Of a stretch of DNA of 64,000 bases, positions 18,574 to 25,824 are shown piece after piece. The notes under the pieces are model-generated. The model did no database searches. It was not told where the DNA came from and saw only the letters and a program-made list of their open reading frames with translations. The translations under genes and the position numbers were made by a program. Numbering within the stretch: position 1 is the first letter of the stretch; each line of letters starts with the position of its first letter. The stretch comes from Fibrobacter sp. (lineage in GTDB: Bacteria; Fibrobacterota; Fibrobacteria; Fibrobacterales; Fibrobacteraceae): positions 1-64,000 of the forward strand of contig JAKSIC010000014.1 in NCBI GenBank assembly GCA_024399015.1, read 5' to 3'.

Positions 18574-21500
18574 ATGCGGTGTTATAATATTTTCAAGGGA
18601 ATGTCCCTTGTACTCGCTTTTTGTGCTTCTTTTGCAATGGCCCAGGGCGGTAATGGCGGCCCCGGAGGAAACAAAAACAATAGCTATACGTTTACTGTCA
18701 ACTATGATGGTGGATCCCCCTATTACAGGGATGCCCAGAACAATTGCAAAATCGTTGGCCAGAAAAACGGAGTCTACACTTTAACCATAAACGGCAACGA
18801 AGGCACAACCGTCGCGTTGTTCAGTGATAACAAGTGCCGGACGTCCATCTACAATAAAAAAATCAGCGAAATTGTCGCAGCTGGTCAAACCACGGCGCAA
18901 ATTACAATTCAAGCAGGAAACAAGCCTACTTCCTCATCCGCCATGGAACCGGCAAAACCCGCCTCCTCCTCTTCCATCAAATGGCCCACACCGGTAAGTA
19001 GCTCCTCCAAGAAGGGAGGAAACCAGCCAGGTGGTGGCGCACAGCAGCCCTCCGGCAAGACCGTCATCCGTTTCCTGACTCCCTGGACCAACACCTCCGC
19101 AGTCCTCTTTGTAAACGGCGAATCTTCCGCCACCATGACCAAGGTCAAGAACTACTGCGGTTGGTTCGAAACCAGCCTTAATCCTCCTTCTGAAGGTCTC
19201 AACGTCTACTTCAAGCAGACTATCGGCTTGAACTACGTTGGCGCAGAAGGTATGGTCAACAAGGAACCTACTTCCGCCAGCTTCATCAGTCTCGACTCCA
19301 TCGCAGCCCTCACAGACACCATCTGGATTCAGGGCTACAAGAACGATGTCCCTGCGCTTTTCGCAAAGTATCCTGGCGTTCTGGGCGAATGCCCCCTCAA
19401 GAAGTTCCCGGTAACCGTTTTTGACTGGCTCCACGGTGACAAGGGCGACGGTGCAAACGGCAATGGCGCCGCAACCAACGGCGTCAGCGCAGACTTCGGT
19501 TCTGGCGGATGCGGTGGTAGCAATGCCAAGGACGATAAAGGTAACGGCTACATGAAGGGTATGGTGGATTACAAGCTCGGTACAAACGGCGTGCCCGTCC
19601 CCGCAGCCAACTTCCCCGCTGAATGCAAACTTACCACTCATCTCGACAAGTGGTTCCTGCCCGAAGTGGTCACCACAAAGAACGGCAAGGAGTACACCAA
19701 TATGACCTGCCGCGACCTGTACATCTCCATGGACGATGAAGGTTTCTGGCTGGCAGAAGTTTCCTCCGACAAGATTTCCGAGGGTAACGAAAAGAACAAG
19801 GGCGGTATGTTCCTCGTGGACGACTTCCAGTTCCTTGACGACGCTCAGACCATCAAGAATCCCTACTATGATCGCCTTAACGGCAGCGGCGGCACTCACA
19901 ACTTCGGTTTCGCCGTAAAGATCCAGGCTACCTTCGAATATGTCCCGGGTCAGTACTTCGACTTCTACGGCGACGATGACGTGTGGGTATTTATTGACAA
20001 CCGTCTGGCCGTGGATATCGGCGGCCAGCATCGTCAGGTAGCAGGTGCTGTTGACCTGGACACTATCGGTCAGAACAACGGCAAGAAGCTGGTTCCCGGC
20101 GAAACCTACAACTTCCACATCTTCTACGTGGAACGCCATACCAGTTCCTCCAACTTCCGTATGCGTACTTCCATCGACCTGCAGGTGGACGCCTCCATCT
20201 TCATGACCTCCGACAAGAAGGGATCCTCCACCAATTACGACATCTGGCAGATCAACAAGAAGAACAAGCTCTCCTGCGGTTACGATCCGAGCAACACCGA
20301 AGTGGATACTACCGGCGGTGCCTCCACGTTCCGTCTCACTGGTGGCAACTTGGAAGAACCTGAAATCCTCGGCATCGGCACTCATTACGAAGGCCTCAAG
20401 ATTACCAGCGACTCCACCTTCTCCATCGACTCTGCCGCAATCGTAGATAACGCAGCCTTGGCACCGGGCCACTACTACTTGGAAATTTCCTTGAAGTCCG
20501 ACCCCAGCCAGACCACCATTATCGAAATTACCATTCCGTCCTACCCGCTCCCCAGCGTCGCCTTCGCAGACGAAAAGTGGAAGGTTCTCGGTAAGGAAAT
20601 CTCCGGCAACCAGGCAACCATTGGTAGCTGGGCTTACGAAATCTATCCGGTGAACGTCACCTTCTACGAAGATCAGGCAACGGTCAATGACTATAACAGA
20701 AAAATCACTGTTAGCTCTTCTAACCCGCTGATCGACATTATCGACGCCGACGGAAACCCCATTTCCAAGGTGACCCTGAACGACAAGGCTCAGGCAACCT
20801 TCTACATCCGCGCAAATGGCAGCGTCAATAGCGCAACCATTACTGCCAAGGGTACCGCAGCCGCAGCCTCCTTCTGGAAGAACCTGACCTTCAAGGAACC
20901 GCCGATTCCCCGCGTTACTCTTGCAACCATCTACGACCGCAACGGTGATGGCCGCGGCGACAGCCTTTACGTAAAGTTCGACAAGTCCTTCGACGATTCC
21001 AACATTCTTGATTCCATCCAGTTCACCTTTGGCGAAACCTTCAAGGTCGTTACCAGCAAGAACATCAAGAAGGTATCCGGCAGCGAAATCATTGTCGTGA
21101 CTGAAGGCGCCTGCGACACCACCTCTGCTTGTGGCTTTGGCTCCAGACAGTATACCGGTGGCGAAAGCAGCACTCCTTATACAGGCAATATTTCCACCTG
21201 GGTCACCTATAAGGAAAACGGCAATACCCATAAGCTGAAAACCACCAACGATCCTGTAGACGACGGCATTGGCCCCATTATCGTGAAGGCAACCAAGGAA
21301 ACCCTGCGCGATGGTAACCGCAAGGTCACCGTCACCTTCAGCGAAGCTATTACCGAAGAATCCCGCAAGGAATTCTACAAGCAGATGTTCGAATACATTT
21401 GCTTCCGTTCCGGCGAAAACAAACTGCCTGAGGAACCGGTCCAGCAAGGCGGTAGCGGCAAGACACTCACCATGGTGTTCAGCCCCTCCACCCTGGATGC

Positions 21501-22593
21501 AGTGTTCCCCACCGATGGCGACCAGATTCGTTTCATCCCGGGCAAGTATGCCGAGGACTACAACGGAAACGTTCCCCACAAGAGCAATCCTTGGGTTACC
21601 ATCATCGGCGACCAGGAATTGACCAACCAGAGCCCGGGACTTATTGCAGTTGGCGAAGACCCCTACGGAATCATCGCCAATGACGAGCCGACCCAACCCA
21701 TTCTTGTTACCGACACCAAGAAGGACGCTCAGCAAATCGGCGACTCCCTCGGTGTTCAAGGCAACCTGGTTGACTTCGACATTTCCAAGATCATGGCAGA
21801 ACAAACCATGAAGGATGTGGCAAAGCTCGATGCCTATATCGCCAAGCTTACCGGAGCCTCTTCAGCAGACACCTCCTACGAAGTTACTGAAAAGACCGAA
21901 GCCGAAGCAACCCAGCAGCTCTTCTCCGATATCCAGAGTGGCGAACTCAGCGCAGGCCTCAGCGTAGAAGTTATCGATGCTATCCAGAAGGGAGAAATCA
22001 CCAAGGATAATTACACCAGCAAGATCAAGGGCGAAGATCTGGAAATTGTCAAGGAGCTGATCCAGGCAAGCATTGAAAACAGCCGCGACTCTTCCATGAC
22101 CGTTACTCCGCCTACAATCACTGGTTACGATGACATCTTCCAGCAGATTGTTAGCGGTGCCATTACTGAAAAGGATCTCAAGAAGGCTGGAGTCAGCGAA
22201 ACTCTCATCCAGGCAATCAAGGATGGCGTTCTGACTTCCTCCAACATTGAAAATTACCGCAGTGGTGAAGAATCCCTGATTTCCGAAAACGCTGTGGTTC
22301 TGCAGTACCAGACCCGCTACTATGATCACCTGGGTTCCTACGTTGGCGGCAAGGCCGGCACCATCAAGTGCACCGACGATCTCTACGGAACAGGCGGTTG
22401 CCTCAACAATAAGGGTAAGCTGTTCCTCGCCTGGAACATGCGCGACCAGAACGGCCGCTTGGCTGCAACCGGCATCTACATCGCCCGCCTCGAAGTCAAG
22501 GTCAAGGTCAACGGCAAGGTCACCATCGAACAGACCCGCGACAAGCTCTGGGGTGTTCGCCGCGGCAAAGGCGCTCCGCGCTTCCTTGACTAA
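18574..22593 (+). CDS. Fibro-slime domain secreted protein 2
   Basis: A 1,339-residue paralogue of the preceding protein. The ATG at 18574 follows AGGAGA. The signal peptide ends SFAMA. A Ser/Pro/Gly-rich linker (about residues 115-160) separates an N-terminal domain from the conserved region. The fibro-slime core is near 445-545 (GDDDVWVFIDNRLAVDIGGQHR, NFRMRTSIDL). The rest follows fibro-slime 1 block by block, ending in the same C-terminal module (LFLAWNMRDQNGRLAATGIYIARLE) and a basic WGVRRGKG tail. It is probably exported to the surface or medium; adhesion is the proposed family role. It differs from the first mainly at the N-terminus. Confidence 0.9.
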   Translation: MRCYNIFKGMSLVLAFCASFAMAQGGNGGPGGNKNNSYTFTVNYDGGSPYYRDAQNNCKIVGQKNGVYTLTINGNEGTTVALFSDNKCRTSIYNKKISEIVAAGQTTAQITIQAGNKPTSSSAMEPAKPASSSSIKWPTPVSSSSKKGGNQPGGGAQQPSGKTVIRFLTPWTNTSAVLFVNGESSATMTKVKNYCGWFETSLNPPSEGLNVYFKQTIGLNYVGAEGMVNKEPTSASFISLDSIAALTDTIWIQGYKNDVPALFAKYPGVLGECPLKKFPVTVFDWLHGDKGDGANGNGAATNGVSADFGSGGCGGSNAKDDKGNGYMKGMVDYKLGTNGVPVPAANFPAECKLTTHLDKWFLPEVVTTKNGKEYTNMTCRDLYISMDDEGFWLAEVSSDKISEGNEKNKGGMFLVDDFQFLDDAQTIKNPYYDRLNGSGGTHNFGFAVKIQATFEYVPGQYFDFYGDDDVWVFIDNRLAVDIGGQHRQVAGAVDLDTIGQNNGKKLVPGETYNFHIFYVERHTSSSNFRMRTSIDLQVDASIFMTSDKKGSSTNYDIWQINKKNKLSCGYDPSNTEVDTTGGASTFRLTGGNLEEPEILGIGTHYEGLKITSDSTFSIDSAAIVDNAALAPGHYYLEISLKSDPSQTTIIEITIPSYPLPSVAFADEKWKVLGKEISGNQATIGSWAYEIYPVNVTFYEDQATVNDYNRKITVSSSNPLIDIIDADGNPISKVTLNDKAQATFYIRANGSVNSATITAKGTAAAASFWKNLTFKEPPIPRVTLATIYDRNGDGRGDSLYVKFDKSFDDSNILDSIQFTFGETFKVVTSKNIKKVSGSEIIVVTEGACDTTSACGFGSRQYTGGESSTPYTGNISTWVTYKENGNTHKLKTTNDPVDDGIGPIIVKATKETLRDGNRKVTVTFSEAITEESRKEFYKQMFEYICFRSGENKLPEEPVQQGGSGKTLTMVFSPSTLDAVFPTDGDQIRFIPGKYAEDYNGNVPHKSNPWVTIIGDQELTNQSPGLIAVGEDPYGIIANDEPTQPILVTDTKKDAQQIGDSLGVQGNLVDFDISKIMAEQTMKDVAKLDAYIAKLTGASSADTSYEVTEKTEAEATQQLFSDIQSGELSAGLSVEVIDAIQKGEITKDNYTSKIKGEDLEIVKELIQASIENSRDSSMTVTPPTITGYDDIFQQIVSGAITEKDLKKAGVSETLIQAIKDGVLTSSNIENYRSGEESLISENAVVLQYQTRYYDHLGSYVGGKAGTIKCTDDLYGTGGCLNNKGKLFLAWNMRDQNGRLAATGIYIARLEVKVKVNGKVTIEQTRDKLWGVRRGKGAPRFLD

Positions 22594-22722: not shown

Positions 22723-25700
22723 CTAAATAGTATTGAACTGTTCAGTAATGTCTTCGTTGTCCTTGTCGTACATCCAGTACTGATTGACATGAGCGTGGTC
22801 ATCTTCCACCAGGTGGATCTTGATGGCGTGCTTATGTTCCAGGTAGTTGTACACCAGGCATTCGTTCTTGCAGAGTTCATCCACAACAGCGGGGCTTACA
22901 ACCAAAGTAACTTCGCGCATGCGACCCTTGGTGTGAGCACGGCCTAGCCAGCGGTCGATCATGCCGAGAGTACCGGTGAGGGTACCGATGCGGCCACCGC
23001 CACAGCAAACGGAGCAGACTTCAGTCTTTTCAGTCATGAGGTTCACGCGGACGCGCTTACGGGTCACTTCCATCAAGCCGAACTGGCTAATGGGAGACGG
23101 ACTGATAGGAGCCTTGTCGCGACGGATTGCCTTGCGGAATTCCTGATAGACGCTTTCGCGGACAGAGTCATCTTCAATTTCGGGGAACTTGATGATGATA
23201 AGACCGCCCACGTCGCGGAGACGGAGCTGCTTCGCGATTTCATGGCAAGCTTCGTTGCAAGCTTCCAGATTGGGCTTGCAGTTCACCTTGATAGAAACCA
23301 GAGCTTCGGTCTGTTCAAGAATCAAGCTGCCGCCAGAAGGCAGCATCACCTTGCGCTGCAAGGAACGAGCGTACTCGTTTTCGATCTTGAAGTTTTCAAA
23401 CAAGCTGACCTTTTCGTTCCAGAACTTCACCTTGTTCAGCTTGTCCGGGGACAGGCGCTGCAGGTAGTCGCGCAGAGCGTAGTATTCATCGCGGTTGTCG
23501 ATGTAGACCACGTCAGTGTTGTCGCTGAAGTATTCGCGAACAGTCTGTTCAATGGAATCGGATTCTTCATAGATGCAGGTTTCGGCAGGCTGGTTCTCGA
23601 AGTTGAACTTCGTCTGTTCCCACTTCGCTTCCAGTTCACGCATCTGCTTGTTGATTTCAAATTCGGATTCGTTCAAGCCGTTGGTACGAACGATGTAGCC
23701 CACGTCGCGACCCTTCAGGCGCTTCACCACCTTCTTGAATTCGCGGCGCTTGGCCGGATCACGTTCACGCTTGGACACGCCAACGAAGTTGGTACCCGGC
23801 ATGCAAACCAGGAATCGACCGGCAAAGCTCAAGTGTGTGGTCAGACGAGCACCCTTGGTGCTAATCGGTTCCTTTACCACCTGGACCATGATCTCCTGGC
23901 CTTCCTGGAGAATCTCGTCGATGGAAATTTCCTTGGATGCACCGCTTTCATCATCATCGTCACCATATTCGCGACGGAGAAGTTCGTTGCGGTCCATAGC
24001 GTCTTCCTGATGGAGGAAGCCGGCCTTTTCCATACCGATATCGATGAACGCAGCCTTCAGCGCCGGAAGCACCTTCTGGACCACGCCCTTGTAAATGTTG
24101 CCCAGCACGCGGGTAGAGGAAATACCTTCCACCACCAGTTCCACCAGTTCGCCGTCTTCCATGATGGCGATACGCTTTTCGTAAGGAGTCTTACTGATGA
24201 GGATTTCGCGCTTGGCCTTGTTGCGGTTGTCGCGGCGGGAACGCTTCTGACCCGGAGCCTTCTTCTGAGTCTTTGCGGGCTTGGCCTGAACCACAGGCTT
24301 TTCAAAGTCGGCAAAGTTGTAAAGGTCCGTGATGTCTTCCTTGTTCTCGTTGTACATCCAGAACTGGTTCACATGGGCATTTTCATCCTGGATCAAGTCG
24401 ATGGTCATGCCATGCTTGTATTCCAGGTAGTTGAACATGCGGCTGCGGTCCTTGCAGAGAACATCCACAACATAAGGATTGGTCACCAAGGTCACCTGAC
24501 GCAGGCTACCCTTAGCCTTGGCACGAGCCATCCAGCGGTCGATCATACCCAGGGTGCTTTCCAAGGTAGCGGTACGGCCACCGCCCGAGCAAACCGGGCA
24601 GATATTGTACTTGCTGCCGGCACCATCCGGATGCACGCGCTTACGCTTGATTTCCATCAAGCCGAACTGGCTGATGGTAGCCGGGGTCACCTCGGCCTTG
24701 TCGCGGCGGATCGCCTTCATGAATTCGTTGTACACCGTGGTGTTGTCGGCCTCGGTCTCCATATCGATGAAGTCCACGATGGTCAGGCCGTCCACGTCAC
24801 GGAGACGCAGCTGCTTCGCGATTTCGCGGCAGGCGTCGATATTGGTTTCAAGAATGATCTTGCCCTGGTCCTTGCCATGGACCTTGGGACCGGTGTTCAC
24901 GTCGATGGACACCAGGGCGGCGGTCTGTTCAATCACCAGGTTGCCACCGCGGGGCAGGGGAACGGTACGCTGCAAGGAGCGGGCGTAGTCGTTTTCCACC
25001 TTGAAATATTCGAACAGGCTTTCGCCGGAACTCCACAGCTTCACCTTGTCCAGCTTGTCCGGGGACAGGGACTTCAGATCGTCGCGGAGGGAGAAATAGT
25101 CGTCACGGTTGTCGATATAGACATAGTCCGTGTTCTCGTTGAGATACTCGCCAATAGCACGCTGGGTAGAATTGGATTCCACATAGAGGCAGCCCGTGCC
25201 GTCCAGGGAAGCGAACTTTTCCTTGATGGAAGCCCACTTGGATTCCAGTTCCTGCATCTGCTGGGACAGTTCCGCCTCGGAAGCGTTCACGCCTTCGGTA
25301 CGGACGATATAGCCCACGTCGCGACCCTTATTGTGGTTGATCCAGCGTTTGATCTCGCTACGCTTGGAGGCGTCCTTCTCGCGCTTGGAAACCCTGATGA
25401 TGTCGGAATCCGGCATGCAAACCAGGAGACTACCCGCAATATTCAGGTGCATTGTCAGGCCGGCGCCCTTCTTGCCTGTCGGCTCCTCGGATACCTGGAC
25501 CATCACGCTGTCGCCTTCGCGGAGCACCTTCTCGATGCTTTCCACCACGGCTTCTTCCTCATGGTTCCTTCTACCCTTGGGGGCGTTCAAGTCCTTGGCA
25601 TCTTCCTGGAGCAACACGCCGTCGGCATCGAGACCGATATCAACGAACGCAAGCTTGCCTGCGATGACCTTCTTGACAATACCCTTATAGATATTTCCGA

Positions 25701-25824
25701 AAACCTGAACAGCTTCGCCACCATCTACGATCAATTCCGCCAGTTCGCCATCTTCCATGATGGCATAACGCTTGTCGTAGGGTGTCTTGCTGATCAGAAT
25801 CCCGCATTTACACTTATTCGTCAT
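22723..25824 (-). CDS. rng: Double-length ribonuclease E/G: active copy fused to inactive copy
   Basis: A 1,033-residue fusion of two RNase E/G catalytic modules. Copy 1 (about 1-505) starts ILISKTPYDKR and has an S1 domain, the 5'-sensor Arg-Thr pair (IVRTEGVNAS), both metal-binding aspartates (Asp308 in SIDVNTG, Asp351 in IVDFIDM) and a CPVC zinc link. A basic linker leads to copy 2 (about 535-1033). Copy 2 has the same order and keeps the S1 domain, the IVRTNG sensor and CSVC. However, the catalytic aspartates are replaced by Lys846 (SIKVN) and Lys879 (IIKFPEI), and about ten residues between them are missing. Copy 1 should process RNA; copy 2 should be catalytically dead but may bind RNA or dimerise. 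The ATG at 25824 follows AGGA. Confidence 0.92.
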   Translation of the reverse strand: MTNKCKCGILISKTPYDKRYAIMEDGELAELIVDGGEAVQVFGNIYKGIVKKVIAGKLAFVDIGLDADGVLLQEDAKDLNAPKGRRNHEEEAVVESIEKVLREGDSVMVQVSEEPTGKKGAGLTMHLNIAGSLLVCMPDSDIIRVSKREKDASKRSEIKRWINHNKGRDVGYIVRTEGVNASEAELSQQMQELESKWASIKEKFASLDGTGCLYVESNSTQRAIGEYLNENTDYVYIDNRDDYFSLRDDLKSLSPDKLDKVKLWSSGESLFEYFKVENDYARSLQRTVPLPRGGNLVIEQTAALVSIDVNTGPKVHGKDQGKIILETNIDACREIAKQLRLRDVDGLTIVDFIDMETEADNTTVYNEFMKAIRRDKAEVTPATISQFGLMEIKRKRVHPDGAGSKYNICPVCSGGGRTATLESTLGMIDRWMARAKAKGSLRQVTLVTNPYVVDVLCKDRSRMFNYLEYKHGMTIDLIQDENAHVNQFWMYNENKEDITDLYNFADFEKPVVQAKPAKTQKKAPGQKRSRRDNRNKAKREILISKTPYEKRIAIMEDGELVELVVEGISSTRVLGNIYKGVVQKVLPALKAAFIDIGMEKAGFLHQEDAMDRNELLRREYGDDDDESGASKEISIDEILQEGQEIMVQVVKEPISTKGARLTTHLSFAGRFLVCMPGTNFVGVSKRERDPAKRREFKKVVKRLKGRDVGYIVRTNGLNESEFEINKQMRELEAKWEQTKFNFENQPAETCIYEESDSIEQTVREYFSDNTDVVYIDNRDEYYALRDYLQRLSPDKLNKVKFWNEKVSLFENFKIENEYARSLQRKVMLPSGGSLILEQTEALVSIKVNCKPNLEACNEACHEIAKQLRLRDVGGLIIIKFPEIEDDSVRESVYQEFRKAIRRDKAPISPSPISQFGLMEVTRKRVRVNLMTEKTEVCSVCCGGGRIGTLTGTLGMIDRWLGRAHTKGRMREVTLVVSPAVVDELCKNECLVYNYLEHKHAIKIHLVEDDHAHVNQYWMYDKDNEDITEQFNTI

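Follow-up and report, generated by a model that had tools for sequence, protein, structure and literature searches.

In many bacteria RNase E/G initiates the bulk of mRNA decay, and what is understood of the coupling between sensing by one protomer and cutting by its partner comes mainly from crystal structures. The rne locus of the Fibrobacter sp. DNA analysed here, a stretch of 64,000 nucleotides (the window), raises the question of how such an enzyme works when two modules are joined in one chain and neither has every active-site residue. The gene occupies 22723-25824 of the minus strand as a single uninterrupted frame of 1033 aa; a plus-strand coding reading of the same interval was rejected as a chance frame. 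As the earlier note had proposed, the frame holds two complete RNase E/G modules, with Pfam RNase_E_G (497.7 bits, cut-off 25.5) and TIGR00757 (717.8 bits, cut-off 326) each matching twice. The RNase E equivalog score of 449.5 is below its cut-off of 908, and the RNase G equivalog PRK11712 gives 592.6, a score summed over the two modules, against a curated NCBIfam cut-off of 594. By all sequence tests, both modules taken together, the protein is a member of the RNase E/G family. Each half follows the order RNase H, S1, 5'-sensor, DNase I, Zn-link and small domain, in common with the catalytic domain of RNase G and RNase E (E. coli Rng, Rne 1-529; PF10150, TIGR00757), with which copy 1 also shares the complete metal site. 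In contrast to these enzymes, which are homodimers or homotetramers of identical subunits, the fused gene places two modules in each chain and has reciprocally lost F67 of S1 (copy 1) and the metal aspartates (copy 2). The added length is the second module, and no long disordered C-terminal scaffold of the degradosome type follows the catalytic domain. A tandem RNase E/G was not found described in our searches of open-access papers, and the fused form is regarded here as a new variant within a known family. Its features in the window are as follows.

22723..25824, minus strand: fused tandem RNase E/G gene, 1033 aa, including the stop codon
24310..25824, minus strand: copy 1, residues 1-505; metal site intact, S1/5'-sensor apparently degenerate
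25165..25710, minus strand: copy 1 S1 and 5'-sensor, approximately residues 39-220; relaxed, dN/dS 0.16-0.26
25615-25617, minus strand: copy 1 V70, in place of F67
25297-25302, minus strand: copy 1 R175-T176, retained 5'-sensor pair
24610..24972, minus strand: copy 1 DNase I subdomain, approximately residues 285-405
24901-24903, minus strand: copy 1 metal ligand D308
24772-24774, minus strand: copy 1 metal ligand D351
24589..24600, minus strand: copy 1 Zn-link, C409-x-x-C412
24211..24309, minus strand: linker, residues 506-538, about 33 residues, basic
22726..24210, minus strand: copy 2, residues 539-1033; S1/5'-sensor apparently intact, predicted to be catalytically dead
23551..24111, minus strand: copy 2 S1 and 5'-sensor, approximately residues 572-758, with F593, F603, K657 and R713-T714
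24016-24018, minus strand: copy 2 F603
23683-23688, minus strand: copy 2 R713-T714, 5'-sensor
23026..23358, minus strand: copy 2 DNase I subdomain, approximately residues 823-933; about 10 residues shorter, fold kept in the model
23287-23289, minus strand: copy 2 K846 (D303 position)
23188-23190, minus strand: copy 2 K879 (D346 position)
23005..23016, minus strand: copy 2 Zn-link, C937-x-x-C940

RNase E/G was found in 162 of 168 genomes of the phylum, nearly always as one open frame of ~510-600 aa. The fused gene of ~1035 aa occurs in 20 of the 80 Fibrobacter genomes searched, as 20 distinct proteins with identities down to ~73%, and none lay beyond the genus among the matches listed for the 168 phylum genomes. 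The single-copy Fibrobacter enzymes (511 aa; a size also given in PMC3071783) are direct relatives in the same genomic place and, unlike the fused form, carry every active-site residue in one module. In the window's genome, which is 99.85% complete, the fused gene is the sole RNase E/G match; RNase J gave no match and RNase Y nothing over the cut-off, with a weak partial match in a 797-aa frame on C42. Three endonuclease families, RNase E/G, RNase Y and RNase J, are usually credited with initiating mRNA decay. RNA decay in this genome may depend on the fused enzyme alone, which must therefore presumably work.

We then compared the active-site residues across the 20 fused proteins. In the window's gene, the residues named in the earlier note were confirmed: copy 1 has D308 and D351, 43 apart, and copy 2 has K846 and K879, 33 apart in a stretch about 10 residues shorter, and keeps the S1 domain, R713-T714 of the 5'-sensor and the CxxC cysteines C937/C940. 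The 5'-sensor pair R169-T170 and the Zn-link cysteines are present in both copies of all 20 proteins. The position of D346 in copy 2 is Lys throughout (20/20) and is never Lys in copy 1, whereas the D303 position is Lys in 7 (the window's clade only), Asn in 2 and Asp in 11; N305 has changed to D, E or S in some proteins, and the shortening by ~10 residues is restricted to the window's clade, where the D303-D346 spacing is 33-36 compared with 42. The Asp-to-Lys pair that the earlier note looked for in relatives is thus general at D346 and confined to 7 of 20 at D303, and of the two aspartates whose retention in relatives it had named as counter-evidence, the first is kept in 11 of 20 and the second in none. 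These substitutions predict that copy 2 is catalytically dead in all 20 fused proteins, and D346K probably came first, with D303, N305 and the length of the stretch altered afterwards, separately in different lineages. D303R/D346R, a laboratory RNase E mutant in which both of these positions are basic, is catalytically inactive yet retains RNA binding, and has been crystallised in complex with RNA (PMC6202311); that protein is an engineered homomer, whereas the change to Lys described here is natural and affects one half of a fused pair. The equivalents of K879 do not vary in any of the 20 proteins although neighbouring catalytic positions drift, and the invariant Lys may have a role of its own, for example in replacing the charge of the metal.

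Copy 1 shows the opposite pattern. Its metal ligands D303, N305 and D346 (D308, N310 and D351 in the window) are invariant in all 20 proteins, while F67 of S1 is replaced by V, S or I in every one, F57 is Tyr in 11 of 20 and K106 varies; copy 2 keeps F57, F67 and K106 in 20/20. In 60 aligned single-copy genes from the genus and the phylum, F57, F67, K106 and K112 are invariant. F57 and F67 have been grouped with D303 and D346 as active-site residues (PMC9841416), and the +2 base has been modelled between F67 and K112 (PMC8522691). Because copy 1 retains R169/T170 in all 20 proteins and mostly K112, and the Val at F67 may keep some function, impairment of its S1 is less certain than the loss of the copy 2 DNase I site. 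Both F67 loss and D346K were probably single ancestral events, so that 20/20 does not amount to 20 independent observations.

The division between the copies extends to whole domains. Over S1 and the 5'-sensor, copy 2 is 92-94% identical to the single-copy Fibrobacter enzymes and copy 1 47-60%; over DNase I, copy 1 is 79% identical to these relatives and copy 2 65-77%, compared with 96% among the single-copy proteins themselves. Raw searches gave the same picture: single-copy genes match fused residues 535-796 at 87-95% and residues 230-505 mostly at 75-81%, their N-half being mostly 90-95% identical to copy 2 and their C-half ~75-81% identical to copy 1. We computed dN/dS within two fused clades and obtained copy 1/copy 2 ratios by codon bootstrap. 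For S1 plus 5'-sensor, the values were 0.19 and 0.21 in copy 1 and 0.034 and 0.040 in copy 2, with ratios of 5.6 (95% CI 3.2-11.5) and 5.2 (3.2-9.8); for DNase I they were 0.064 and 0.109 in copy 1 and 0.199 and 0.207 in copy 2, with ratios of 0.32 (0.15-0.62) and 0.53 (0.28-0.95). The intervals exclude 1 in opposite directions for the two regions in both clades, and there was no significant difference between the copies in the RNase H part or the small domain. Single-copy genes gave 0.048 for S1, 0.026 for the 5'-sensor and 0.052 for DNase I, placing the kept parts, the copy 2 S1/5'-sensor and the copy 1 DNase I, near single-copy constraint. The pattern is a reciprocal relaxation along domain boundaries, without general decay, and since dN/dS stays far below 1 the folds of the relaxed domains are still under selection.

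In E. coli RNase E, RNA is bound by one protomer and cut by its partner, the 5' sensor of one serving the active site of the other (PMC3997798). We consider it probable that the two modules of the fused chain pair within the molecule as a pseudo-heterodimer, and that this contains a single complete composite site, made of the copy 2 S1/5'-sensor and the copy 1 DNase I domain. The modules most likely pack against each other in the manner of the principal dimer in E. coli RNase E, in an arrangement that would be held by a shared zinc, with two Cys from each copy, and by the paired DNase I domains, the fold of the copy 2 domain being retained as a dimerisation partner. The copy 2 S1/5'-sensor would grip the RNA, with a preference for RNA carrying a 5' monophosphate, and the Mg site of copy 1 (D308/D351) would hydrolyse the RNA so held. 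In the opposite combination, copy 1 S1 with copy 2 DNase I, each of the two parts lacks residues and the site would be dead, leaving one complete active site per fused chain compared with two per ordinary dimer. The pattern both requires action in trans and supports it: in a cis arrangement both modules would have incomplete sites, although the genome has no other enzyme of this kind among the matches over cut-off. As the loss is reciprocal, copy 2 likely provides the only fully intact RNA-presenting domain for the active site of copy 1. A composite site could also form by pairing between chains, and the DNase I domain of copy 1 has itself diverged (79% compared with 96% among single-copy proteins), a point against the composite-site reading. 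The obligate pseudo-heterodimer of the earlier note fits in that a dead half carries RNA-binding and sensing parts, but that half would do more than add sensing or scaffolding.

With slightly less confidence, we favor the view that reciprocal decay left exactly one composite site, turning a two-site enzyme into a one-site asymmetric one and providing a natural experiment that fixes catalysis in trans. Fused or paired modules, one active and one a degenerate pseudoenzyme, are known cases of asymmetric division of labour after duplication. The fused RNase E/G shares this division of labour but differs in that its loss is reciprocal, each module being without what the other has kept. Evolution appears to have run a mixed-dimer experiment in which sensing and clamping are split from cutting, as action in trans allows and action in cis does not. 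In the fused enzyme each element could be mutated singly, at one of its two sites, as is impossible in homomeric RNase E, and this would make the questions of cis or trans action and of 'one RNA per dimer' directly testable.

Several other explanations were weighed against the composite site. The earlier note took copy 1 as a complete nuclease to which copy 2 adds a 5'-end sensor or RNA scaffold, and the retention in copy 1 of D303/N305/D346, of R169/T170 and mostly of K112 agrees with this. We regard it as unlikely, as the S1/5'-sensor of copy 1 is degenerate (F67 lost in 20/20, 47-60% identity, dN/dS relaxed ~5-fold) whereas that of copy 2 is held at single-copy constraint; copy 1 as a complete enzyme is the part of the earlier proposal that these data speak against. 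Somewhat less likely again is a post-translational split or an internal start that yields two subunits and a true heterodimer, in which case the chemistry would be the same but the enzyme would not act in its fused form. The linker is basic and of low complexity (12 K/R in a 34-residue stretch) and offers an in-frame GTG at residue 511, its sole in-frame start codon; against this, all 20 genes have an unbroken frame and have lost the ATG with which copy 2 once began. The end of the linker, NKAKRE, resembles the single-copy N-terminus MANKxKRG with the start Met absent.

A functionless copy 2, decaying and retained only because it is in frame, would account for the stepwise loss of its catalytic site (D303K, D303N, N305D/E/S and the shortening in one clade), but is quite improbable given an S1/5'-sensor dN/dS of 0.026-0.049, equal to that of single-copy genes, and a value of ~0.2, well below 1, even for its DNase I domain. 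A pseudogene reading was rejected on this constraint, on the frame and on the Zn motif, the latter two being retained in 20 genomes. Modelled alone, copy 2 gave a pLDDT of 83, with 2bx2 as best match (E 7.5e-45, TM 0.71), and its DNase I domain superposed on the Vibrio DNase I domain 6x2d with a TM of 0.87-0.88 and an rmsd of ~2 Å, in agreement with selection on the copy 2 DNase I fold. An AlphaFold2 model of the whole chain, made with 24 fused relatives, had a pLDDT of 52 and a pTM of 0.27, and our statements on packing are not drawn from it. An assembly artefact or chimera has a negligible chance of being the explanation and misassembly is excluded in practice: the 12 named records with the fused gene are Fibrobacter metagenome-assembled genomes, whose proteins duplicate 12 of the 20, but the gene recurs in 20 separate assemblies with divergence up to ~27%, with the same neighbours in most fused genes checked, and each copy is monophyletic in the trees of both gene halves.

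To trace the origin of the fused gene we built trees of the N-half and the C-half (FastTree and quick IQ-TREE). In both, the copy 1 sequences fall into one well-supported group and the copy 2 sequences into another, and the fused gene therefore probably arose once. In the C-half trees, copy 1 groups with the single-copy genes of G092, G093 and G096 and copy 2 with those of G069, G074, G085, G087, G095 and G124, suggesting that two different Fibrobacter rne alleles were joined; simple duplication is nevertheless not rejected by the AU test (p 0.64 and 0.59). Two single-copy genomes lie nearer to the window in DnaN (97%) than other fused genomes do (85-92%), and a genome whose fused gene belongs to the window's clade reaches only 77%. 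Either the single form replaced the fused form in places or the fused form moved between species, and under either history fused and single forms can replace one another. Fused and single-copy rne alternate among close Fibrobacter (G092/G093/G096 against G000/G070/G089-G091/G099), and the disagreement in G089 between DnaN relatedness and the rne gene tree points to allele replacement or between-species transfer at the locus.

Most fused and single-copy genes share the neighbours dnaN, an M23 peptidase, a HAD hydrolase and a fibro-slime-like protein. In the window, the last of these is encoded at 18574-22593 on the strand opposite to rne, as a large secreted fibro-slime/PA14-like protein with a low-complexity Ser/Pro stretch; it adjoins rne in most relatives checked and is ~40-60% conserved in most of those. 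Elsewhere in the class, genus g14 has extra separate RNase E/G-like genes with open frames of 717-869 aa (L115, G155-G159). The one that was aligned, L115 (G154:C177:48679-49881), retains the active-site residues, and in G155-G159 the RNase E/G match is interrupted within the DNase I region, which suggests an insertion.
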